A DNA stretch of 64,000 nucleotides from the NCBI RefSeq assembly GCF_008362905.1, contig NZ_VFJB01000001.1, forward strand, positions 62,001 through 126,000, given 5' to 3'. Origin of the DNA: Deferribacter autotrophicus. Its GTDB lineage: Bacteria; Chrysiogenota; Deferribacteres; Deferribacterales; Deferribacteraceae. Positions 2 through 25,632 of this stretch are shown piece by piece. The stretch's first letter is position 1. Each line of letters begins with the position of its first letter. The translations under genes were made by a program, and so were the position numbers. The notes beneath the pieces were generated by a model, which was given only the letters and a program-made list of their open reading frames with translations, ran no database searches and was not told the origin of the DNA.

Positions 2-670
2 AGAGATTGGCAGGAAAATATTTGCAATAAGAAAATCCACGGCACAACTAGAAAAGTTCCATATGAACAATTTATGGAAAAAGAGAAATCCTGTCTATTA
101 AGCATTCCAGGTAAGAGATATGAGGTTTATGAAGTTTCAGAAAGAATTGTAAACAGATATTCTCATATCACTTACAAGTACAATTATTATTCCGTGCCTT
201 ATAAATATGTGGGTAGTAAGGTAAATATTCGCAGTAATGGCAGCATACTGAAAATCTACAATGAAAAATTTGAGGAAATAGCGGTTCACACAGTATCTAA
301 ATTAACTGGAGAATTTATAACAAATAAAGCCCATAATCCGAAATTGACACAAAGTGACTATAAAAGAAAATCTCTTGAAATAGGCCTTAACACTTTAGAA
401 TTTTATGAAAGGTTAAAGGGAGAAAAACCTCGTCATTATCACAGAATGATGCAGGGAATATTCAGTCTTTTAAAAGTTTATGACAGAGAAATAATCGATT
501 TGGCTTGCAAGAGAGCTAATAAGCACAATTCAATAAGTTATTTATCGGTTAAAAAAATATGTGAATCAGGGATATATTCTATTTCTGAACCTGAGGAATC
601 AGTAAAATGTTCAGGGTATGGTCATAATTTGCAAATCTATGATGAGATATTAAATGGGAGGATCAATTAA
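2..670 (+). CDS. istA: IS21-family transposase IstA, C-terminal part (5' end outside window)
   Basis: The reading frame is open from the first bases of the window, so this is the C-terminal portion of a longer protein. The start of the visible part, around the words IHGTTRKVPYEQF, matches the conserved region just after the DDE catalytic core of IS21 IstA transposases. The remainder is the basic C-terminal beta-barrel and DNA-binding type region. The catalytic DDE residues are upstream and cannot be judged. The gene ends two bases before the istB start codon, and the istB ribosome binding site lies inside its last codons, which is the usual istA-istB coupling. It is clear as IstA; whether the full protein is intact is unknown. 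Confidence 0.85.
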   Translation, partial: RDWQENICNKKIHGTTRKVPYEQFMEKEKSCLLSIPGKRYEVYEVSERIVNRYSHITYKYNYYSVPYKYVGSKVNIRSNGSILKIYNEKFEEIAVHTVSKLTGEFITNKAHNPKLTQSDYKRKSLEIGLNTLEFYERLKGEKPRHYHRMMQGIFSLLKVYDREIIDLACKRANKHNSISYLSVKKICESGIYSISEPEESVKCSGYGHNLQIYDEILNGRIN

Positions 671-671
671 A

Positions 672-1418
672 ATGCAAGAAATTATAAATAAATTAAAGAA
701 TTTTAAGTTATCCGGTATGGTTAAATCTTTAGAATCCAGGAATCAATATGCCATAGAGAATCAATTAAGCTATCTTGATTTTCTTTCACTCCTTCTTGAA
801 GATGAAGAATCAAACAGACAGAGCAACTCATTTAAAAAAAGATACTCTAAATCAAAGCTGGATTCTTCTAAGACTCTTATGGAATATGACTTTAGTTATC
901 AGCCTAAATTGAATAAAAAAGAAATACTTGATTTAAGCAGTTGCAGGTTTATTCAAGAGAAGAAGAATATAATCTTTATGGGCAATCCTGGAGTAGACAA
1001 AACTCATCTTGCTAATGCGATAGGTTTGGAGGCTTTAAAAAAAGGATACAAGGTCTTATTTATACATTCTAATGATATGGTTAATAAACTTATATCTTCA
1101 AAAGGTGACGGTAGTTATTTTACTTTGCTCAAAGAATTATTAAGTGTGGATTTGTTGATCATTGATGAGGTTGGTTTTAAGAAAATAGCCCTTAATTATG
1201 TAGATGAATTCTTTGTAATAATTAGACGAAGGTATGAAAGCAAATCAATCATAATCACAACTAACAGGAACTTTGAAGAATGGGGCAACATATTTGGTGA
1301 TGTTGTATTGGCTTCTGCTATTATAGACAGGCTTGTACATCATTCTTACATTTTTAAAATTGAAGGTAATAGTTATAGAATTAAAGATTTACAAACTGTT
1401 AAAAATAGTAAAATATAA
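672..1418 (+). CDS. istB: IS21-family helper ATPase IstB (altered Walker A)
   Basis: IstB is the AAA+ ATPase that assembles with IstA and target DNA to drive IS21 transposition. The protein of about 248 aa has the family layout: a helical N-terminal region, a Walker A-like loop GNPGVDKTH near residue 105, and a Walker B stretch DLLIIDEVGF near residue 165. I chose the ATG at 672 over an in-frame ATG six codons upstream because GGGAGG at 656-661 is correctly spaced from it. In the P-loop the glycine directly before the catalytic Lys-Thr is Asp (GxxGxGKT becomes GxxGxDKT), which would probably weaken nucleotide binding. The protein is otherwise full length, so the element may be a recent but inactive copy. 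Confidence 0.85.
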   Translation: MQEIINKLKNFKLSGMVKSLESRNQYAIENQLSYLDFLSLLLEDEESNRQSNSFKKRYSKSKLDSSKTLMEYDFSYQPKLNKKEILDLSSCRFIQEKKNIIFMGNPGVDKTHLANAIGLEALKKGYKVLFIHSNDMVNKLISSKGDGSYFTLLKELLSVDLLIIDEVGFKKIALNYVDEFFVIIRRRYESKSIIITTNRNFEEWGNIFGDVVLASAIIDRLVHHSYIFKIEGNSYRIKDLQTVKNSKI

Positions 1419-4796: not shown

Positions 4797-5378
4797 CTAT
4801 TCATTATTATTGGATTTAAGCAATGGCTGAAATAAACTTTTTTTAAAGCTATCTATTTTATTATCAAATTTTGCCTGAGCTATCTTAATATAATTATTAA
4901 TAATCTCAGGTTTGCTATGATTCATATATTCTTGAATTTCTTTTTGGTAAAAATTTTTACTTAGAGCTAATAAAGTAGCTAACGTATGTCTAAAAACGTG
5001 CATTGTAACTTTTTTATCAATTCCAGCATTTATTGTTGCAGTTTTTAACGCCTTTGAGTTGTTTCTGGTTTTAAACAATCGATCTGTTATATCATTTTTT
5101 GTAATGTATTCTTTTATTTCATTTAAAGTAAATTCTGTAATCGGTTTAGAATCCAGTTTGTCACCATTTTTGCGTATTGTTGTTGTTATAATCTTATTTA
5201 CAAAATCAATGTCTTTAACCGTTAATTTATTGATATCACCTCTACGCCATCCTGTCTCAATAGCTATGAGTGTCTTGATATAAACTTCTTCACCCCCAGA
5301 CAATTTTAAGTATGCAATTAACTTATGTATTTCATCTGCTTCTAAATAAATTATACGAGATTTATATTTATTTGACAT
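4797..5378 (-). CDS. Short tyrosine recombinase (catalytic domain only)
   Basis: A 193-aa protein that is essentially only the catalytic domain of a lambda-type integrase. Visible motifs are the first Arg (ETGWRRGD, near residue 44), the HVFRHT box near residue 128, a degenerate second His region (YMNHSKPEI) and the nucleophile Tyr in INNYIK. The N-terminal arm-binding and core-binding domains of an ordinary integrase are missing. It is therefore a truncated integrase or a small stand-alone recombinase. A tRNA 3'-end fragment lies 77 bases upstream, which suggests it once served an element integrated at a tRNA gene. Confidence 0.75.
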   Translation of the reverse strand: MSNKYKSRIIYLEADEIHKLIAYLKLSGGEEVYIKTLIAIETGWRRGDINKLTVKDIDFVNKIITTTIRKNGDKLDSKPITEFTLNEIKEYITKNDITDRLFKTRNNSKALKTATINAGIDKKVTMHVFRHTLATLLALSKNFYQKEIQEYMNHSKPEIINNYIKIAQAKFDNKIDSFKKSLFQPLLKSNNNE

Positions 5379-17385: not shown

Positions 17386-17458
17386 GGGGCGGTAGCTCAG
17401 CTGGGAGAGCACTACAATGGCATTGTAGGGGTCGGGGGTTCGACTCCCCTCCGCTCCA
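17386..17458 (+). tRNA. tRNA-Ala (anticodon GGC)
   Basis: Full cloverleaf: acceptor GGGGCGG pairs with CCGCTCC (one G-U pair), D-arm GCTC/GAGC, anticodon stem CTACA/TGTAG enclosing loop ATGGCAT with anticodon GGC, and T-arm GGGGG/CCCCT around TTCGACT. The discriminator is A and CCA is not encoded. The 3' 59 bases are part of a 62-bp direct repeat found again at 24665-24726, so this gene is the integration site of a mobile element. Confidence 0.97.
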
Positions 17459-17461
17459 CTC
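17400..17461 (+). repeat. Left attachment site of the integrative element (62-bp direct repeat)
   Basis: From the D-loop of tRNA-Ala to three bases past its 3' end, this sequence is identical over 62 bases to 24665-24726. The tRNA gene stays intact at this end because the element carries a replacement-type copy. Confidence 0.93.
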
Positions 17462-17693
17462 AACGACTCTCTGATAAATAAAGAAAAACGCAACCAACCC
17501 GTGTTTTATAACTCTTGAATAACTCTTCAAAAACCCTTTTTTTGTCAAGAAAGTTGTCAAGAAACTTGACAAATTTCCCCCACCAAAACCCTTGCAAAAT
17601 CTTGAATAACCATTCATTATAAACAAAACAAACCAGTTAGGTTTGGTTAGGTTTCTGTCAAGGCAGTCAATGTTGCTGTAAGGTTGTAACCTG

Positions 17694-18767
17694 TTAGTCA
17701 TCTTCTTTCTTACCACTCTTAAGTATTCTAAACCCCACTCCTTTGTTGTCCGTGTAGTATGCATTCTCTAACAAGTCAATATAGTCGAGTATGTGGGATG
17801 TGAACCTATTAGCAAACTCTTTATCGTGTTGTTCCAACATCGAAAGAAACGGTTTAAGCTTGTTTTCTATTAGCTGTAATGATGAGTAAAATATTAGCTT
17901 TATTTCAATTTCTGGTATGGTTGAGTGAAACCAAGTAACATAGAAATCACCATTTGCTTGTATTAGCTTCTCAGACCGTTTAAACAAATCGTAAGGTATT
18001 TTTCCTTTAAAGAACTCTCCCTTAATTGCTCTGGTGATTAGACTATCTTCAATCGTATATAGTTTATTGTTATACCTGTTTAACAGTATAGTTTTAACAT
18101 CTTGTGGTGTTAGATTTTCTATATCAATGCCACAGTGTTGTTTTAATGCTTCAGTAAACTCTTGAATCAATATGTTGTGATTATCAATATCCCAAAATTC
18201 GTCACTTGGGTCAAGATACGTGTTAAAAGTGCTCAAAAACTTGTAATGCTCATCTGTAAGCTTAACCTTGTTAAACACAAGAAAGTCGTTGTTTTCTTTC
18301 AATTTGGTAATAGTAGCTAAAAAGTCATCCGTTCCATTTGTTAAAGTTTTAGATACACCAGCTTTGATTTTGGTTATTGCTGTAACAGTATCAAGAAAGC
18401 TTTGTGCTAATGAATATCGTTGGCTTGTAGTGGTAAATAACTGTTTAAAGTCATCGTAAAAGTTAAAGCTATCAATGAACAACAAAAAGATATTATGACT
18501 TAATAAAGATTCAATAAGTTTTGCTTTGTTTTTACTATTTGCTAATTTTAAATAAGAGTTAAGAATAAAAGTAATATCAGAATATGAAAGATTAAATATT
18601 TGGAAAATTTTAAAAACTGTTTCTGCAGTAGGTCTTTTTTTTCCGTTTTCAATATTATTTACAAATGTTGGAGACAAACCAAGTATTTTGGCTAAATCTT
18701 TTTGTGTTATTTTATGATTTATCCTTATTTGTCGAAGAAAATTACCCAAACTTTCTAAATCACTCAT
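17694..18767 (-). CDS. XRE-family transcriptional regulator (putative element repressor)
   Basis: A 357-aa protein starting at the ATG at 18767, which has an AAAGGTG site just upstream. A longer frame begins 43 codons earlier with a hydrophobic leader and no such site. Residues about 5-65 form a Cro/CI-type helix-turn-helix (FLRQIRINHKITQKDLAKIL then SPTFVNNIENGKKRP). The remaining 290 residues match no family I recognise and could be a sensing or oligomerisation domain. It is divergent from the HTH gene at 18917, with an inverted repeat between them, the usual layout of a lysogeny-type switch. Confidence 0.8.
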   Translation of the reverse strand: MSDLESLGNFLRQIRINHKITQKDLAKILGLSPTFVNNIENGKKRPTAETVFKIFQIFNLSYSDITFILNSYLKLANSKNKAKLIESLLSHNIFLLFIDSFNFYDDFKQLFTTTSQRYSLAQSFLDTVTAITKIKAGVSKTLTNGTDDFLATITKLKENNDFLVFNKVKLTDEHYKFLSTFNTYLDPSDEFWDIDNHNILIQEFTEALKQHCGIDIENLTPQDVKTILLNRYNNKLYTIEDSLITRAIKGEFFKGKIPYDLFKRSEKLIQANGDFYVTWFHSTIPEIEIKLIFYSSLQLIENKLKPFLSMLEQHDKEFANRFTSHILDYIDLLENAYYTDNKGVGFRILKSGKKEDD

Positions 18768-18826
18768 TATTTCACCTTTTTTAGTAAATATATCACAAAA
18801 AATAAGATATTCAAGTAAAAAGAAAA

Positions 18827-18846
18827 CTATTGACAAAAAACAATAG
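18827..18846. promoter_or_regulatory. Candidate operator between the divergent regulator genes
   Basis: An inverted repeat CTATTG (18827-18832) and CAATAG (18841-18846), with an 8-base centre, lies between the start codons of the XRE gene and the HTH gene. Its left arm overlaps a TTGACA -35-like hexamer at 18830-18835. The position suits a repressor site controlling one or both promoters. Function is inferred. Confidence 0.5.
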
Positions 18847-18916
18847 CAATTTATTTTAAAATTATGATTGACCAAAAATTGCATAGTTTTTACCAAAACA
18901 ACTAAAGGAGGTTAAT

Positions 18917-19117
18917 ATGTCAACCAAACTAATCCCCAACAAAGACACTTTGTTGCAACAGGCTGGTGTTTTACACACAGCCACCACGCTAAGGACGTGG
19001 AAATCTAAAGGCAAGTATCCTGAAATCTTCCGCAAGATTGGTGGTAGGCTTTACATCGACCTTGAAGCCTACCAAAGACATGTATTGGAAATGAATCCAA
19101 GCGAGTTAAACAAGTAA
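18917..19117 (+). CDS. Small HTH DNA-binding protein (excisionase/AlpA-like)
   Basis: A 66-aa protein with a winged-helix or MerR-like layout: TLLQQAGVLHTATTLRTWKS as helix-turn-helix, then FRKIGGRLYIDLEAYQRHV as wing and helix. Proteins of this size and pattern in integrative elements are usually excisionases or small activators. It has a near-perfect AAAGGAGG site and is divergent from the XRE repressor. It heads a run of plus-strand genes. Confidence 0.65.
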   Translation: MSTKLIPNKDTLLQQAGVLHTATTLRTWKSKGKYPEIFRKIGGRLYIDLEAYQRHVLEMNPSELNK

Positions 19118-19132
19118 ATGGGAGGATGAGCT

Positions 19133-19519
19133 ATGGGGGAGTTAACTAACAAAGTAGTAAAAGAAACAGAGCTTAAGAAAGAATGTAAATATTTTGAGTC
19201 CTGTAATGCTCCATTATGCCCGTTACTTTCTGACGATGTCAATTCATTAGGGCTTTGGTATGCTGATGAGGATATTTGTAAGCTTAAAATTAAACAGCCA
19301 TATTGGGTAAAGAAACAACAAAAGATACAGCACATACATAAACACCAAAAGCCTGTATTCGGTTATTTTAATTTTCAAATGTTAAATCACAGTTTTAGAG
19401 TTCAACGTGGCATTATTGGATTAGACCCAGACAAGAACACTGACTCAGAATTGCAAATGTGGTTCAAAAAATACAAGGGTAAATCACGGCTTGAAGCAGT
19501 TTCAAAACAAGCGAGTTAG
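19133..19519 (+). CDS. Hypothetical element protein with N-terminal Cys cluster (128 aa)
   Basis: I do not recognise this protein. Near residues 17-30 it has three cysteines (ECKYFESCNAPLCPL), with a fourth in DICKLK near 60, a spacing that could bind a metal. The C-terminal half is basic. It starts 15 bases after the HTH gene, so they are probably co-transcribed. GGGAGG precedes the start. Confidence 0.6.
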   Translation: MGELTNKVVKETELKKECKYFESCNAPLCPLLSDDVNSLGLWYADEDICKLKIKQPYWVKKQQKIQHIHKHQKPVFGYFNFQMLNHSFRVQRGIIGLDPDKNTDSELQMWFKKYKGKSRLEAVSKQAS

Positions 19520-19576
19520 ACGTGTTTTTTGAGTCAAAATGAGCGAGTTAAGCGTGTCCAACAGGGGTAAAAAAAT

Positions 19577-19602
19577 TTGACTAAGGGTTTTACCTTAGTC
19601 AA
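19577..19602 (+). terminator. Hairpin after the first plus-strand gene pair of the element
   Basis: A 10-bp perfect stem TTGACTAAGG (19577-19586) and CCTTAGTCAA (19593-19602) with a 6-base loop. It is not followed by a U-run on the plus strand (AGCCC follows), but on the minus strand it is followed by AATTTTTTT. It could act as a terminator in the minus direction or as a regulatory stem. Nearby, the 15-mer-like motif GCGAGTTAAGCGTGT occurs twice (19511 and 19541 areas), and a complementary TAACTCGCTT follows at about 19628. Confidence 0.5.
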
Positions 19603-19744
19603 GCCCAACCCCCCTAAAAATACCCCTTAACTCGCTTCATTTAACCCCGAAAATGGGCTTAACTCAATTTTAAGGTTGTAACTATTTGATAATTAAGAAG
19701 ACAATTTTTAGAGAAAGGTTAAATAAACATCGAGGGAGGTTAAT

Positions 19745-20047
19745 ATGAAAACAAATAATTCAGCCATTTTGAATCTTGTGAAAGTATTAGGAGTAGCCAA
19801 TGCGGTTAAAAGTGCTATTGAAAAAATTGCAAGTCAAACTGATGAGTCAAACTTGAAGCAAGTTAGCTCTGATTTAGCCAACTTAATCTATGATGTTGAA
19901 AATATGGTTATCCCTCTTGACACACGTGGAACTATAAGCCTTTCAGATTATTATATCCATCAATGTGCTTCCTTAATCAGAAATGCTCTGGTTATCATTA
20001 AAGACCTCAACAAAGAGACAGAGTTCTGGTGCTATCTGGGAGAGTAA
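19745..20047 (+). CDS. Hypothetical element protein (100 aa)
   Basis: Unknown soluble, mainly helical protein with no motif I can name. It has a GAGGGAGG site and precedes the putative replication gene by 36 bases on the same strand, so it may act with it. No signal peptide or membrane segment. Confidence 0.55.
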   Translation: MKTNNSAILNLVKVLGVANAVKSAIEKIASQTDESNLKQVSSDLANLIYDVENMVIPLDTRGTISLSDYYIHQCASLIRNALVIIKDLNKETEFWCYLGE

Positions 20048-20083
20048 AACAGCATATATGACAACACCACCACGGGGTATTAC

Positions 20084-21232
20084 ATGAAAGAGAACAGGCA
20101 AGGATTTTTCAAAGTCAACACAAGAAAATTCTACAAGTTATTTAAGATGGATACTAACGAAATTCTGGCTTATCTTGTGTTTACAGCAGGCACAAGTGAT
20201 TTGGGGATTGATGGATTACCCAATAACAGGTTTACTGAATGGGGAGCAGAAAGTTTACACAGATATCTAGGATTACCACGAACAGTAGCCAGAAGATGTA
20301 TCAAAAAACTTTTGGAAAATGACATCATTAGGGAAGTAACTGGAAAATCTGCATATAGTTTTTACACTAAAAAACAATTTGCGGGTAGGCGTCTTTCCCC
20401 TACCCGCTACAAGAAGACCAGCAAAGTTTACGATATTTTGCCAATTGGTGAACTTGAAAATGATGAATATATTTACATGCCTAATATGATAATTAATACT
20501 TTCAAGCATTTTGTCAATACCCCAAAATACAACATAATCTTTCTGCTCTGTTCATATATCCAAACCAACTGGATGGTGGGAGGAGGGATAGTTAAGTTTT
20601 GCTTTAAGAAGTGGATGGAAATACATCCAAGTGAAGGCAGTATTCTCACACAATATACCTGTAGTGATAGTAATACTATCCTATGGAAACATGTCCAAAA
20701 AATAACCCAGTATTTACCAGAATATAAAGATTACAGCATAGATGAGTTACAAAAACTTAATACTGACAAAAATATCATTACCACCGAAATCATCTGGAAT
20801 CCCTTGCAATTTCTAATCAACCATAAACTCATCTATGAGGTGGTTTCTGTTTACGAGTGTGATAATGATGTGTTTGATTTTGATAACGCAGAATGGCTTT
20901 ATGATTTGTTTGTGCCAAGAAACAAAGGGTTAGAAAATAAATCCAGCCAAGACCCTTGTTTGTATGATATGCTAAAAGAAAAACACGAGGCAGAGGGTTA
21001 TAATATACCCAAGAAAATACTCTCACTACGTGATTGGGATGACAACGAAGTCTTAACTGTTTACAAACCCTATAACAATATTTGGGTTGTTAGTAATTAC
21101 AGGCTATTATATAGACCTGATACTGAAGCAGTATACCAAGCTTATAAGAATATGAAATCAAACATAAAATATTACGCTAATTGTGTTCTTAAATGGTTCA
21201 AGCCACGCAAAACAGAAGAAGTTGTCTGGTAA
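20084..21232 (+). CDS. Putative replication-initiator-like or DNA-binding protein (382 aa)
   Basis: The N-terminal 110 residues read as a winged helix (ILAYLVFTAGTSDLGIDG, then LHRYLGLPRTVARRCIKKLL and EVTGKSAYSF), as in plasmid initiators and RepA-like or helix-turn-helix adaptor proteins. The following 270 residues are not recognised. The gene is followed immediately by about 0.95 kb of non-coding DNA with an iteron array and AT-rich repeats, the usual order of a rep gene and its origin. The replication role is inferred from this context. I cannot exclude a transcriptional or primase-associated role. Confidence 0.5.
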   Translation: MKENRQGFFKVNTRKFYKLFKMDTNEILAYLVFTAGTSDLGIDGLPNNRFTEWGAESLHRYLGLPRTVARRCIKKLLENDIIREVTGKSAYSFYTKKQFAGRRLSPTRYKKTSKVYDILPIGELENDEYIYMPNMIINTFKHFVNTPKYNIIFLLCSYIQTNWMVGGGIVKFCFKKWMEIHPSEGSILTQYTCSDSNTILWKHVQKITQYLPEYKDYSIDELQKLNTDKNIITTEIIWNPLQFLINHKLIYEVVSVYECDNDVFDFDNAEWLYDLFVPRNKGLENKSSQDPCLYDMLKEKHEAEGYNIPKKILSLRDWDDNEVLTVYKPYNNIWVVSNYRLLYRPDTEAVYQAYKNMKSNIKYYANCVLKWFKPRKTEEVVW

Positions 21233-22190
21233 TTTCAATCCAACAGGGTGGTTGATTAATTTAGCCACCCTGCTTTCTTATCTAACCTGAATTATACCCA
21301 CTTATATCCCGATATACTAAACATAACCTAAGCTTACTTAAATATATCCCATTTAGGTAAATATTAGGTTTTATATACCCAGTTTTATAATATCCAAGTA
21401 TAATTAAACTTAGTTATACACTACTTAAGCCAAGTTATAGGCTATTATTTAACTAAGCTTACTTATACCAGAGTATAACAAGAGTATATTACTTAATTTA
21501 AGCCAAACTGTTATACTTGGTAATAATTACTCAGTCATACTTAATTTTTAGCCAAGATTATTATATTATCTAAGTTATAACTTAGCTTAGCTTAGCTTAG
21601 ATTAATATAACTTGGTTTAGTATAGTATAGCTTAGCTATATTTAGCTTAGTATAATATAACTAAGCTTAGATTAATGTGTAATAAGCTTGGTTATCATTT
21701 AGTATAATACTTAGTTTAACTAAACTAATACTTAGTAATAGCCAAGATAAAAGAAATAGTTTTGATTGGCTTAAGAAAAATAAAATAAAATAAAATAAAA
21801 TAAACTAACTATGCTTTATTTTATTATTTTTTATTATTTAAGCCACTTGATATACACTTGATAAGCATTTGATATGCATACTTGATAACACATACTTGAG
21901 TTACATACTTGAGAATACATACTTGAAATACATACTTGATATGGTTAAGCCTTTCTTTAACAATACCAAAGTATTAGCCAAAAATTAAAGGTTTATTGTT
22001 TTTGGTTGGCTAAGGCTTAATTCTGGGATTGTAAGAGTAAGGGAATCTTAGAGAATTGGTGTGAGAATATACGTTGAAATGATTTTTTAGGTTTACTTGC
22101 AAAGAAGTATTCTTATGATAAAATTTAATTGGAAATTAAATTAGTTTCCAAGTAGTGTAAAGTTAAGTAATATAATGTTTAACAGGTGAT
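21233..22190. other. Origin-like AT-rich repeat region
   Basis: About 0.95 kb without a gene. 21270-21760 is unusually rich in short palindromic words built from CTTAG, AAGCTTA and TATAACTTAG, including four perfect tandem CTTAG units at 21581-21600. 21781-21800 holds four tandem TAAAA units. An iteron array follows at 21845-21939. A repeat cluster beside an AT-rich block and a rep-like gene is the classic arrangement of an iteron-type replication origin. The function has not been demonstrated. Confidence 0.65.
21845..21939 (+). repeat. Iteron array, core ACTTGA (8 copies)
   Basis: The hexamer ACTTGA (one copy ATTTGA) recurs at 21845, 21856, 21867, 21880, 21894, 21907, 21921 and 21934 with spacings of 11-14 bases. 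The last five copies share the longer core CATACTTGA. The regular period is close to a helical turn and a quarter, as expected for binding sites of an initiator. Confidence 0.8.
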
Positions 22191-22195
22191 GCCTA

Positions 22196-22726
22196 ATGTT
22201 AAACTTAATTATTTCGTTTATCTTGATTTTGATTACTGTTTTTGTCTTATTAGCTTCCGTTAGATTGTTAATAGAGCCTTATATACAAATCCCCAAAGCT
22301 AAATTTATAAGCTTTATCACTTCTCCATTATGGTGTTTATTTTTGTTTGTATTACTTCCTCTTGCACTAAGAGACTTTTCTTTAGGAGATTTAGAGTTTA
22401 GTTTTAGTTTCGTAAAAAATTATCTCTTAAGCAATAAAAATATCTTTGATAAGTTATACCCTATACTGGTTATACCAATAAGCGTTTTATGGTTATATAT
22501 ATTGCCGTCTCATATTTGGATTCAAAATAATAAAGAAAAAATTGATAGTAAAATTAAAAATTTTGCGAGGATATTAAATTTTTTTGTAGGAATTCATTAT
22601 ACTGGTTTTGTTGGAAGAATATTTATAAATGAATTGTTTGAGCTTTTTGATATTTTTTTCTTAATAATATATATTCTTGGTTCTCTTACCCATGAAGTAG
22701 CCAACAAAGAAAATAATGAAATTTAA
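22196..22726 (+). CDS. Hypothetical membrane protein of the element (176 aa)
   Basis: An unrecognised integral membrane protein with four hydrophobic segments (about residues 1-25, 38-58, 88-108 and 150-170). The first segment may be an uncleaved signal anchor. The ribosome binding site is weak. Base composition and codon use are more AT-rich than the core genes. The function is unknown; immunity or superinfection-exclusion roles are possible for such cargo but unproven. Confidence 0.55.
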   Translation: MLNLIISFILILITVFVLLASVRLLIEPYIQIPKAKFISFITSPLWCLFLFVLLPLALRDFSLGDLEFSFSFVKNYLLSNKNIFDKLYPILVIPISVLWLYILPSHIWIQNNKEKIDSKIKNFARILNFFVGIHYTGFVGRIFINELFELFDIFFLIIYILGSLTHEVANKENNEI

Positions 22727-22995
22727 ACAGTTATCATTGTGTTTAGAAGATAAATATTACCCATAAGTATTCACCAACCTTTTTATCCACCTCGCAAATC
22801 TGAGTGGCTTTTTTATATATGCCCCCTCCCCTAAAAATTTTTGATGGGGTGGGTATAGGTAAGATAGTTAACACTGACAGTATTACTGACTACACCATAA
22901 AACAAGAATAAAAAAAAATAGCAAGTTTATTTGCAACCTTATAGTTATATGATAAAATTTAATAAGAAGTTAAAAATTTGTTAATGGGAGGGATT

Positions 22996-23547
22996 ATGAA
23001 AAAATTATCTAATTTTATTGTAAAATTAGCAAGTTATGTTTTTGTAGCTTATTTTTTAGTATCGTTTTCTATTTTTGCTCCTTTTTATAACTATGAATAT
23101 GCTAAACAAAATGGATTTATTAAATGGTTACTTTTAGGACAAATTGTTCCAACTATAAAAGCATTAGCTTTTCCTTATTTTGAGTATCAAAGATACTACA
23201 ATAAACAAATCTCAAAAGAGTTAGATAAAATATTCGGTTCTTTAACATATTATAAAGAAGCAATAAGTTTGCTTATAAACCAGCAAAACATAGAACAAAG
23301 CTTATTTAAGTTAAAACAAGCTTACAATATGATTAATCAAGTAAATTTTGAGTTAGCAAAGAAATCTAATTATGATTTTGTAATTGACGTGGAGAAATAT
23401 TATAAACCAGCCTTAAAAAAATATGTTGAGGGATACGAATCTGGAAATACTTATTTAATAACAGAAGGCGATATACTCTTTAACAAATTTAGAGAAAAAC
23501 TTTTGAAATATTCAAAACAAGGCAAGTTAGTTATAAAACTTAATTAA
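22996..23547 (+). CDS. Hypothetical membrane-anchored protein of the element (183 aa)
   Basis: I do not recognise the family. One hydrophobic segment (residues 8-35) is followed by a soluble helical domain rich in Lys and Tyr, with predicted coiled-coil character at about 65-115. The start at 22996 is chosen because GGGAGGG lies just ahead; an in-frame ATG six codons upstream has no such site. It is convergent with the integrase gene, with a 7-base gap. Confidence 0.55.
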   Translation: MKKLSNFIVKLASYVFVAYFLVSFSIFAPFYNYEYAKQNGFIKWLLLGQIVPTIKALAFPYFEYQRYYNKQISKELDKIFGSLTYYKEAISLLINQQNIEQSLFKLKQAYNMINQVNFELAKKSNYDFVIDVEKYYKPALKKYVEGYESGNTYLITEGDILFNKFREKLLKYSKQGKLVIKLN

Positions 23548-23554
23548 ATTTAAA

Positions 23555-24577
23555 TTACAGGTTAAAAATACTATTGATACTATCAATAATATTTTTCTTT
23601 TGTTGGTTTAAAATATGAGTGTATCTTTGTGTCATCTTAATATCCTTATGCCCAAGAAGTTCTTGAACAGTCCTAAGGTCTTTAGTCATTAATAGGGCAT
23701 AAGTGCCAAACGTGTGGCGTAAGTCATGAAATCTAAAATCAGCTATACCAGCTCTTTTTAATGCATTGGTAAACCCTTTTTTGATGTCTGTAAATGGCTT
23801 TCCTGTTTTAGGGTTATAAAACACATAGCCAAAAGGGGATTTCTCAAGCCTTTTCTTAAATATTCCCGCCAAAGTGTCGTTTATTGGAATGATTTTATAA
23901 TCATTGTTCTTAGTGTTTTCTGCTTTCTTGGTGATAATCATTAGCTCGAAGTTTATTTCATTTACGTGCAAATCTAATATTTCACGTTTTCTCATACCCG
24001 TTAAAATTGCTGTAATTATTATTTCTTTTAGATAACCATCTGTGGCTTTTAATAGCCTGTTCAACTCATCTTTAGAGAGGTATCTCATACGTGGATATTC
24101 CTCAAACTTTAGGAAGTGTTGAAATGGGTTTTCTTTAACCAAGCCTTGTTTAATTGCTTTGTTGTAAGCTGATTTGACAAAGTTTAGTTCTCTGTTGATG
24201 GTTGCACCAGATACACCTTGAGCTAATCTTAACTGTTGCCATTTGTAGATAAGCTGGGGAGTAATTTTCTTGTTGTTAAAAAACTCAATAAGTTTGGCAA
24301 ACTGATGTTTGCATGTGTGGTAAGTACTAACCTTGTGGGTTTTCAGGTATTCCAGAAACATGGTTAACACTTCCTTGAAAGATGCTTCTCTTTTTACAGT
24401 CTGTTTCTGATACAACCCCAAAGCCACTTGGGCTTTTATCTCTTTTATTTTCTCCGTAGCTTCCTTTCTGGTCATTTTCGATACAGGAAGTAACCAACCC
24501 CTGTAACGTTTACCGTGATAAGTGAAATCGTAAAACCAAGTTTCAACACCTTTGTAAAGTCCAACTTTAAGAGCCAT
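23555..24577 (-). CDS. Tyrosine integrase of the tRNA-Ala element
   Basis: A 340-aa phage-type integrase that should recombine the 62-bp att repeats. It has an N-terminal beta-rich arm-binding region (residues 1-60, including GVETWFYDF), a SAM-like core-binding domain (about 70-165) and a catalytic domain with Arg in TGMRKREILDL, HDLRHTFGTYALL, LLGHKDIKMTQRYTHI and the nucleophile Tyr in the latter. The start at 24577 follows a good GGAGG site. The gene begins 88 bases from the right att repeat and reads inward. All catalytic residues are present. Confidence 0.93.
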   Translation of the reverse strand: MALKVGLYKGVETWFYDFTYHGKRYRGWLLPVSKMTRKEATEKIKEIKAQVALGLYQKQTVKREASFKEVLTMFLEYLKTHKVSTYHTCKHQFAKLIEFFNNKKITPQLIYKWQQLRLAQGVSGATINRELNFVKSAYNKAIKQGLVKENPFQHFLKFEEYPRMRYLSKDELNRLLKATDGYLKEIIITAILTGMRKREILDLHVNEINFELMIITKKAENTKNNDYKIIPINDTLAGIFKKRLEKSPFGYVFYNPKTGKPFTDIKKGFTNALKRAGIADFRFHDLRHTFGTYALLMTKDLRTVQELLGHKDIKMTQRYTHILNQQKKNIIDSINSIFNL

Positions 24578-24664
24578 AACCAAAACCTCCACTTAGAAAA
24601 GTTGACAAAAATCTTGACAAGTTTTGTGGACGGGTTGGTTACTCTTTGGTAATATTGGGATAAT

Positions 24665-24726
24665 GCTGGGAGAGCACTACAATGGCATTGTAGGGGTCGG
24701 GGGTTCGACTCCCCTCCGCTCCACTC
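24665..24726 (+). repeat. Right attachment site of the integrative element (62-bp direct repeat)
   Basis: A perfect 62-base copy of 17400-17461. It lacks the 5' acceptor strand and D-stem of the tRNA, so it is not a functional tRNA gene. It marks the right boundary of the element. Confidence 0.93.
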
Positions 24727-24751
24727 TATTTTATCCAATAAAATCAATAAC

Positions 24752-25632
24752 TTACAAATTATCAAAATTAAATTCTGACAGTTTTCTGACAATTTTGTTT
24801 GAATTAAAAAAGAAATCTGACAATTTTTCTGCTTCTTTGTGATCATTTTCTTTAATAAATTTTGAATACTTTTCAAAAAGTGTTCTCACTCCTGAGTGTC
24901 CCATTTGTTTGGCTACAAAATTCGGTGAAATGCCTGCAATTAATGATAATATAGCATACGTATGTCTTATTTGATAAATTTTCTAAATCTTATACCTAAT
25001 ACTTTAAGTGTCGGTCTCCAGATATTTTTAACTATATTCGAAGATTGAGTATAATTAGTTCCCCATTTAGTTAAAAATACAAACTTTGATTTCATAAAAG
25101 TGTATTGTTTATGATTAAGTACTATCTTTTGTAATGGTTCTATTATTACGACATCTCTAATACTATCTATAGTTTTAGGTTTAAGTAACTTACCGTCTGT
25201 CATACTTTCTTTAACTCTATATATCCAACAATTAAAATCAAAATTTTCCCATTTTCATTGCTAATAACTCACCTGTTCTCATCCCTGTCATGAATCCTAC
25301 GGCAAAAAAAAAAAAAGCATACATTTCAGGATATTTTTTTGAATATAATCTAAGATCATCAACATTTCTTCTTTTGAAAACGGTTCAATATCAGTTTTTT
25401 TTCCTTTAAATTCTTAATTTTAAGCATTATGTTTGAATTTATAATTTCTTAATCAAAAGCATCTTCAAAAATTCTTCTAAAAGGTATTAAGAAATTATTG
25501 ACTGTTTTAGCTGATCTTCCTTGTTTTATACTCAGAATAAAATCTTCTACATAATACTTTTTTATCTCTATTAAATTCATTTCCCATAAGTTATTCTCTT
25601 TTAATCCCTTTATTACTAATCTTAATTGTTTA
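24752..25632 (-). pseudogene. Decayed second tyrosine integrase
   Basis: Minus-strand translation gives an integrase broken into several frames: an N-terminal piece (YYVEDFILSIKQGRSAKTVNNF), then EEMLMILDYIQKN and TGMRTGELLAM (first catalytic Arg), a middle piece at 24967-25203, and finally YQIRHTYAILSLIAG, MGHSGVRTLFEKYSKF near the 3' end. Stops and frameshifts, including a run of 13 A at 25303-25315 on the plus strand, break it. It starts only 26 bases beyond the right att repeat, so it probably belonged to an older element that used the same tRNA-Ala gene. Confidence 0.82.

Follow-up and report, generated by a model that had tools for sequence, protein, structure and literature searches.

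The described systems closest to the locus reported here are small plasmids, integrative elements and minimal phage satellites. Rep_3-type iteron plasmids (PF01051) encode initiators such as RepE, R6K pi and Acinetobacter RepM, and the R6K pi iterons are 22 bp long. Phage-inducible chromosomal minimalist islands (PICMIs) adjoin fis in Vibrionaceae and depend on virulent phages (PMC10803314). The locus lies in a 64-kb stretch of the Deferribacter autotrophicus genome (the window, in which all positions are given unless another contig or genome is named), on a 319,692-bp contig of the 2.535-Mb genome. In this window, a 7,265-bp segment is inserted at a tRNA-Ala gene. The segment is probably a site-specifically integrated, plasmid-like element made up of an integrase, a candidate excisionase, an XRE-type repressor, an iteron replicon and two cargo genes. 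An initial annotation, made from the sequence of the window, proposed a "plasmid-like or satellite" element. This is right in kind; the plasmid-like half is favoured by the family of the replication gene and by the repeat arrays, and no packaging gene is found, but a prophage is present elsewhere in the genome.

Integration at a tRNA-Ala gene

The tRNA-Ala (GGC) gene that is the target of integration is located at 17386..17459 on the plus strand, as identified by tRNA calling and Rfam, and is reconstituted at the left end of the element. The Rfam scan contains no RNA family match except tRNA. The element is bounded by two direct repeats found by repeat search, attL at 17400..17461 and attR at 24665..24726 (both plus strand), which are identical over 62 bp. 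The spacing between them, 7,265 bp, is the element length. The 62-bp repeats around about 7.3 kb at tRNA-Ala that the initial annotation described are exact, and a search of the entire genome finds two perfect copies, attL and attR. The attL sequence consists of nucleotides 15-74 of the tRNA gene plus 2 nt. The attR sequence contains the 3' part of the tRNA gene only; the first 14 nt are missing from it, and it receives no tRNA call. Chance is excluded as the source of the repeat.

In D. desulfuricans, the sister species, the homolog of the sequence beyond attR comes directly after the tRNA-Ala gene. When the flanks of the element are joined in silico, they form one uninterrupted alignment to D. 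desulfuricans (306 bp, 81%). This unoccupied site demonstrates the insertion directly. It also fixes the polarity, in that the 3' half of the tRNA gene as it now stands came from the attP of the element. Direct repeats with an intact tRNA gene, an adjacent integrase and an unoccupied site, which define integrative elements inserted at tRNA 3' ends by a tyrosine recombinase, are all present.

The integrase gene, also named in the initial annotation, is located at 23555..24592 on the minus strand, 72 bp from attR. It encodes a tyrosine integrase of 345 aa from a GTG start or 340 aa from the ATG at 24577. The protein matches PF00589 (E = 4e-29), PF12167 and PF13102, as well as PHROG phrog_1 (8.5e-68), and contains arm-binding, SAM-like and catalytic domains. 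Its relatives are generic only (26-37% identity). A match in one other genome (G006) was set aside as a fragment of the arm domain, located in an unrelated island that also carries restriction genes.

Short repeats are found on both sides of the core. The putative left attP arm sites (17492..17572) are AACCAACCCGT at 17492, TTGTCAAG at 17542 and 17554, and CTTGACAA at 17565. The putative right arm sites (24602..24640), inverted relative to the left, are TTGACAA at 24602 and 24614 and ACGGGTTGGTT at 24630. Neither group is assigned a strand. In circle order, AACCAACCCGT and ACGGGTTGGTT form a mirror-image pair around the core, and the TTGTCAAG and CTTGACAA copies form a second mirror-image set with the two TTGACAA copies. 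The AACCAACCCGT/ACGGGTTGGTT pair has no further copy within the window. Mirror-image repeats are the layout of integrase arm sites, and these repeats may be bound by the integrase.

The 382-aa putative initiator and its repeat arrays

The gene at 20084..21232 (plus strand) encodes a 382-aa protein that is, by distant homology, a putative iteron-binding replication initiator of an unnamed family. Alone, the protein has no match in Pfam, PHROG or NCBIfam, the three collections used for the family scans of the element proteins. The entry point is a single tblastn match (E = 0.07), to a protein of 321 aa encoded by the 8,580-bp plasmid pRHBSTW-00021_2 (NZ_CP056897.1) of Citrobacter. Homologs of the 321-aa protein are found on plasmids of Enterobacter, Acinetobacter, Microvirga and Azospirillum. 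Further homologs are found on contigs of Microvirga lupini, Roseovarius, Phaeobacter and a Kangiellaceae metagenome-assembled genome (MAG), and the roseobacter contigs are small. A family hidden Markov model (HMM) was built from 11 homologs, with the 382-aa protein left out, and 672 targets were scored. The 382-aa protein matches this model with E = 3.9e-17 in two blocks, an N-terminal winged-helix block and a C-terminal block, compared with 0.02 for the best other real open reading frame (ORF) and 0.46 for the best shuffle. Family-profile matches to ribosomal protein S25 and PDE are taken as chance or winged-helix similarity. That the 382-aa protein is a full-length distant homolog of a plasmid-borne family is well supported by these comparisons, as is the rep-like gene that the initial annotation had guessed.

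In the Citrobacter plasmid, the family homolog is the sole initiator-like gene among those annotated. The other annotations are for an integrase, for remnants of head and tail genes and for hypothetical proteins. Near-identical copies of this type are found in a multi-copy Enterobacter record and in an 8,649-bp contig from a viral collection (IMG/VR). For two family members, there are matches of about 1e-4 to PHROG profiles named "replication initiation O-like". The Rep_3 profile (PF01051) matches neither the 382-aa protein nor any of the seven family members scanned. Among 50,697 phage records, there is no full-length match to the family. Because the family is found on plasmids and not in these phage records, plasmid-like maintenance is favoured.

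The 382-aa gene is followed directly by a strong terminator-like hairpin of 12 pairs (21244..21272, plus strand). The putative origin region (21233..22195, strand not assigned) is 963 bp of non-coding, AT-rich sequence with 26% GC and with CTTAG and AAAAT arrays, and corresponds to the origin-like region of the initial annotation. It contains an iteron-like array of eight TCAA[AG][GT] units, mostly TCAAGT, with 11-14-bp spacing (21845..21942, minus strand). In a search for chains of TCAA[AGT][GT] with 9-15-bp spacing, this array is the only chain of more than two units in the window. In 200 first-order Markov windows used as background, the longest chain is two units in 157 windows, three in 42 and four in one; since the pattern was picked after the arrays had been seen, this figure gives rarity and not a clean P value. 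The element has one DnaA box only, an 8-of-9 match at 22783, which is not above background.

Most family members, including that of Deferribacter, adjoin a TCAA-core array with 9-14-bp spacing. In Citrobacter, the 8,649-bp relative, Acinetobacter (3) and Microvirga (2), the arrays are downstream of the stop codon and contain 5-8 TCAA-core units, usually TCAA[AGT]G, with a spacing of about 10-13 bp. In three roseobacter-type loci, four TCAA units with 9-bp spacing are upstream of the gene in inverted orientation. Such joint occurrence of a gene family and a repeat family in different phyla is the pattern expected of an initiator and its iterons. The protein and its array may alternatively serve autoregulation or other DNA binding.

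Several observations weigh against an initiator and an iteron replicon. The 382-aa protein is only 13-23% identical to its homologs. Two of these homologs (Azospirillum and Microvirga lupini) have no recognisable array, and the Deferribacter array is about 610 bp downstream of the gene and in opposite orientation, unlike those of its relatives. Another Rep is present on the Acinetobacter plasmid (RepM) and on one Microvirga plasmid (RepC), so that the family gene may not be the initiator there. We know of no family member with an experimentally tested function, and a search of the accessible literature found no experimental work on the family. The structure model from a seven-row alignment, in which residues 8-85 form a winged-helix first domain, has low confidence (mean predicted local distance difference test, pLDDT, 50.7; predicted template modelling score, pTM, 0.57), and the single-sequence prediction (pLDDT 36.5) is of no use. 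Along with winged-helix regulators, Foldseek returns a weak full-length match to the pi-iteron complex 2nra (E = 0.3); most of the structural matches from Foldseek and VIA are generic winged helices. The predicted structure shifts the case for an initiator little either way. In the genome paper (PMC6896113), which also lists 12 genomic islands, neither coverage nor plasmidSPAdes revealed an extrachromosomal element, so that any circle was rare in that culture. This result is consistent with a quiescent integrated state, and it agrees with the remark in the initial annotation that the element is of a type not obviously described for such hosts.

We consider the chances evenly balanced that an undescribed class of iteron initiators, with TCAA-core arrays of 9-14-bp spacing and a range from Deferribacterota to Pseudomonadota, unites the 382-aa protein with its relatives on plasmids. 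The Deferribacter element would be the chromosomally integrating branch of this class and would define a new minimal integrative plasmid type.

Two further records of the family are of note. The Phaeobacter (5.6 kb) and Kangiellaceae MAG (8.6 kb) contigs encode nearly identical family proteins despite distant hosts, and each contains a short four-unit CTTGAT array just upstream of the family gene. This near-identity points to a small plasmid common to both hosts or to mis-binning of a contig. The 34.3-kb Enterobacter kobei "plasmid" NZ_CP110875.1 contains several tandem 8.58-kb Citrobacter-type units, and its length is that of four units. It is either a multimer or an assembly artefact.

Gene content, alternatives and distribution

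The element contains eight ORFs. The XRE-type repressor (17694..18767, minus strand) is 357 aa long from the ATG at 18767 and has an N-terminal HTH_3 domain (E = 3e-15). Its long C-terminal part has no family match, and its plasmid matches span the helix-turn-helix (HTH) only. A 66-aa ORF (18917..19117, plus strand) is divergent from the repressor gene and has no family match. The initial annotation proposed an XRE repressor with a divergent HTH gene; the repressor and the divergent ORF are present, while the HTH-like nature of the latter and its candidate role as excisionase or activator come from a reading of its sequence and position. The 128- and 100-aa ORFs it named are present, like the 382-aa ORF. 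The 128-aa protein (19133..19519, plus strand) has a Cys-rich N-terminus and no homolog in the genome and viral collections searched. One match in another genome (G036) is an antisense ORF within a transporter gene region and is judged to be chance. The 100-aa protein (19745..20047, plus strand) has no significant match in the family scans or in a defence-protein scan.

Two ORFs were absent from the initial account of the element. They encode a 176-aa membrane protein with about four hydrophobic segments (22196..22726, plus strand, 25% GC) and a 189-aa protein (183 aa from the ATG at 22996) with an N-terminal hydrophobic segment (22978..23547, plus strand, 24% GC). Both are probable cargo genes. 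They are preceded by the copies of a 50-nt direct repeat (22091-22140 and 22925-22974, 76%), each of which contains a promoter-like TTGCAA-16-TAAAAT site. The GC content of the element equals that of the host, except in these two genes and in the origin region.

As an integrated plasmid, the element would function as follows. The integrase would recombine attL with attR to form a 7.27-kb circle, and the 66-aa protein, as directionality factor, would assist excision together with the arm sites around the core. The 382-aa initiator would bind the TCAA units, open the AT-rich region and start theta-type replication with host enzymes. While the element is integrated, the XRE protein would hold the divergent operon (66-aa, 128-aa, 100-aa and rep genes) off. 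Upon circularisation, int would come to follow the repressor gene, with attP between them. The cargo would be the two AT-rich genes for membrane proteins.

Among the element proteins, there is no match to virion, terminase or relaxase families, which bears out the lack of virion and conjugation genes in the initial annotation. Since no transfer gene is present, spread would rely on a helper conjugative element, a phage or DNA uptake. The size and the integrase would also fit an integrative mobilizable element (IME) that uses helper conjugation through an unrecognised relaxase or an oriT alone. The 128- and 100-aa genes have no assignment, and oriT sequences are often unrecognisable. We nevertheless regard an IME as highly improbable; no relaxase is matched in the general scans, which included no dedicated relaxase-HMM or oriT search.

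Just as improbable is a remnant, formed when a prophage or a larger integrative element decayed until only its regulation and replication block remained. An integrase, a CI-like repressor and a replication gene form the early region of many temperate phages, and a second, decayed integrase is located just past attR. However, the eight ORFs of the element are all open and compactly arranged, both of its att sites are perfect and its arm sites intact, and it contains no recognised fragment of a virion gene. The decayed integrase belongs to an older insertion in common with D. desulfuricans and not to the element.

A third alternative is a minimalist phage satellite, similar to the phage-inducible chromosomal islands (PICIs) or the PICMIs. 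Such an element would be integrated and repressor-controlled, would use its own initiator after helper induction and would be packaged by the helper without packaging genes of its own. An integrase, a repressor, a small HTH gene and a rep gene without virion genes are the set kept by minimal satellites, and PICMIs are also without recognisable packaging genes (PMC10803314). The two membrane proteins could be exclusion or defence cargo. The N-terminal 140 residues of the repressor align weakly (E = 0.0085) to Stl of the Staphylococcus aureus pathogenicity islands (SaPIs), mostly over the common HTH, and this match is too weak to be used. The host genome contains a tailed prophage on another contig (C9, ~225000-253500). 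However, this prophage has no DNA in common with the element, and no terminase small subunit, capsid-size or primase-replicase gene is recognised in the element. The defence-protein scan finds no known anti-phage protein inside it, and its initiator family is that of plasmids, as described above. A satellite is unlikely on this evidence, and the plasmid-like element is the preferred reading. The prophage itself contains a TerL-like gene (244806-246140 on its contig) together with capsid and baseplate-like ORFs and is a candidate helper for satellites.

The 382-aa gene is absent from the 49 other genomes sampled in its phylum. A search of 100 genomes with the 382-aa protein finds it in this genome only, and the family profile finds this genome only among 385, apart from two weak winged-helix-only matches. 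No close relatives are identified when viral and genome collections are scanned for peptide patterns of the 382-aa protein, the XRE protein, the 128-aa protein and the integrase. The absence of the gene from all other searched genomes marks the element as a rare and seemingly recent acquisition, as opposed to a group of fixed chromosomal genes. The initial annotation had asked for related elements with the 382-aa gene and named a gene block fixed in relatives as the contrary outcome; neither is found in the phylum sample, and the site is bare in the congener.

Beyond attR, 24727-24943 contains the remnant 3' end of another tyrosine integrase beside the tRNA-Ala gene. This remnant is about 80% conserved in D. 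desulfuricans (stretch L024, 9717-9937), which points to an older insertion common to both species. More than one insertion has thus taken place at this tRNA-Ala site. After the remnant, D. autotrophicus contains a three-gene PD-T4-9-like anti-phage locus (25795-27129), in which gene A (PADLOC, 2e-30) and the SecB-like gene C (5e-29) are separated by a 112-aa gene without assignment. The older insertion may have brought this locus in as cargo. At the left end of the window (74-1418 and 4797-5378), there are an IS21-type istA-like fragment, istB and a short integrase ORF.

Comparison with known systems

If the proposed reading is true, annotation pipelines now leave a new initiator family as "hypothetical protein", and complete circular enterobacterial plasmids seem to depend on it. 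Recognition of the family would make such plasmids typable by gene and array. The Deferribacterota, in which few mobile elements are known, would gain a small replicon that could become a thermophilic vector. A cultured strain that contains a prophage would allow a direct test of how integrated elements free of transfer genes spread.

Integrative and conjugative elements and IMEs are defined by relaxase or conjugation genes, and none is recognised in this element. The element is similar to the PICMIs (PMC10803314) as a small integrated element with a minimal excision and replication gene set and no packaging genes. It differs from them in its location at tRNA-Ala instead of fis and in its replication protein, which is from another, plasmid-borne family. 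With the SaPIs and other PICIs, it shares an integrase, a repressor divergent from a small HTH gene (an Stl-like position) and a replication gene. Unlike in these islands, no pri-rep, terS or capsid-interference gene is recognised, and int is at the other end of the integrated element.

The actinomycete integrative and conjugative elements (AICEs) and archaeal integrative plasmids are, like the element, replicons that integrate at tRNA genes and contain int, candidate xis and rep. The AICEs are set apart by their relation to other Rep families and by a DNA translocase that serves transfer; no such gene is found in the element. With the Rep_3-type plasmids, the element may share an architecture, that of a winged-helix initiator and tandem direct repeats in an AT-rich origin. 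It differs from them in that its family has no PF01051 match and its repeats, at 9-14-bp spacing, have only the TCAA core in common.

The Citrobacter plasmid pRHBSTW-00021_2, together with its Enterobacter and IMG/VR relatives, carries the same initiator-like family as the element. Its initiator is 22-23% identical to the 382-aa protein. It differs from the element as a free circle with phage head and tail gene remnants and 53% GC, and its array is right after the gene and in the other orientation. Like the element, the plasmid has a TCAA array beside the initiator-like gene, which is directly adjacent there, and a tyrosine integrase gene.

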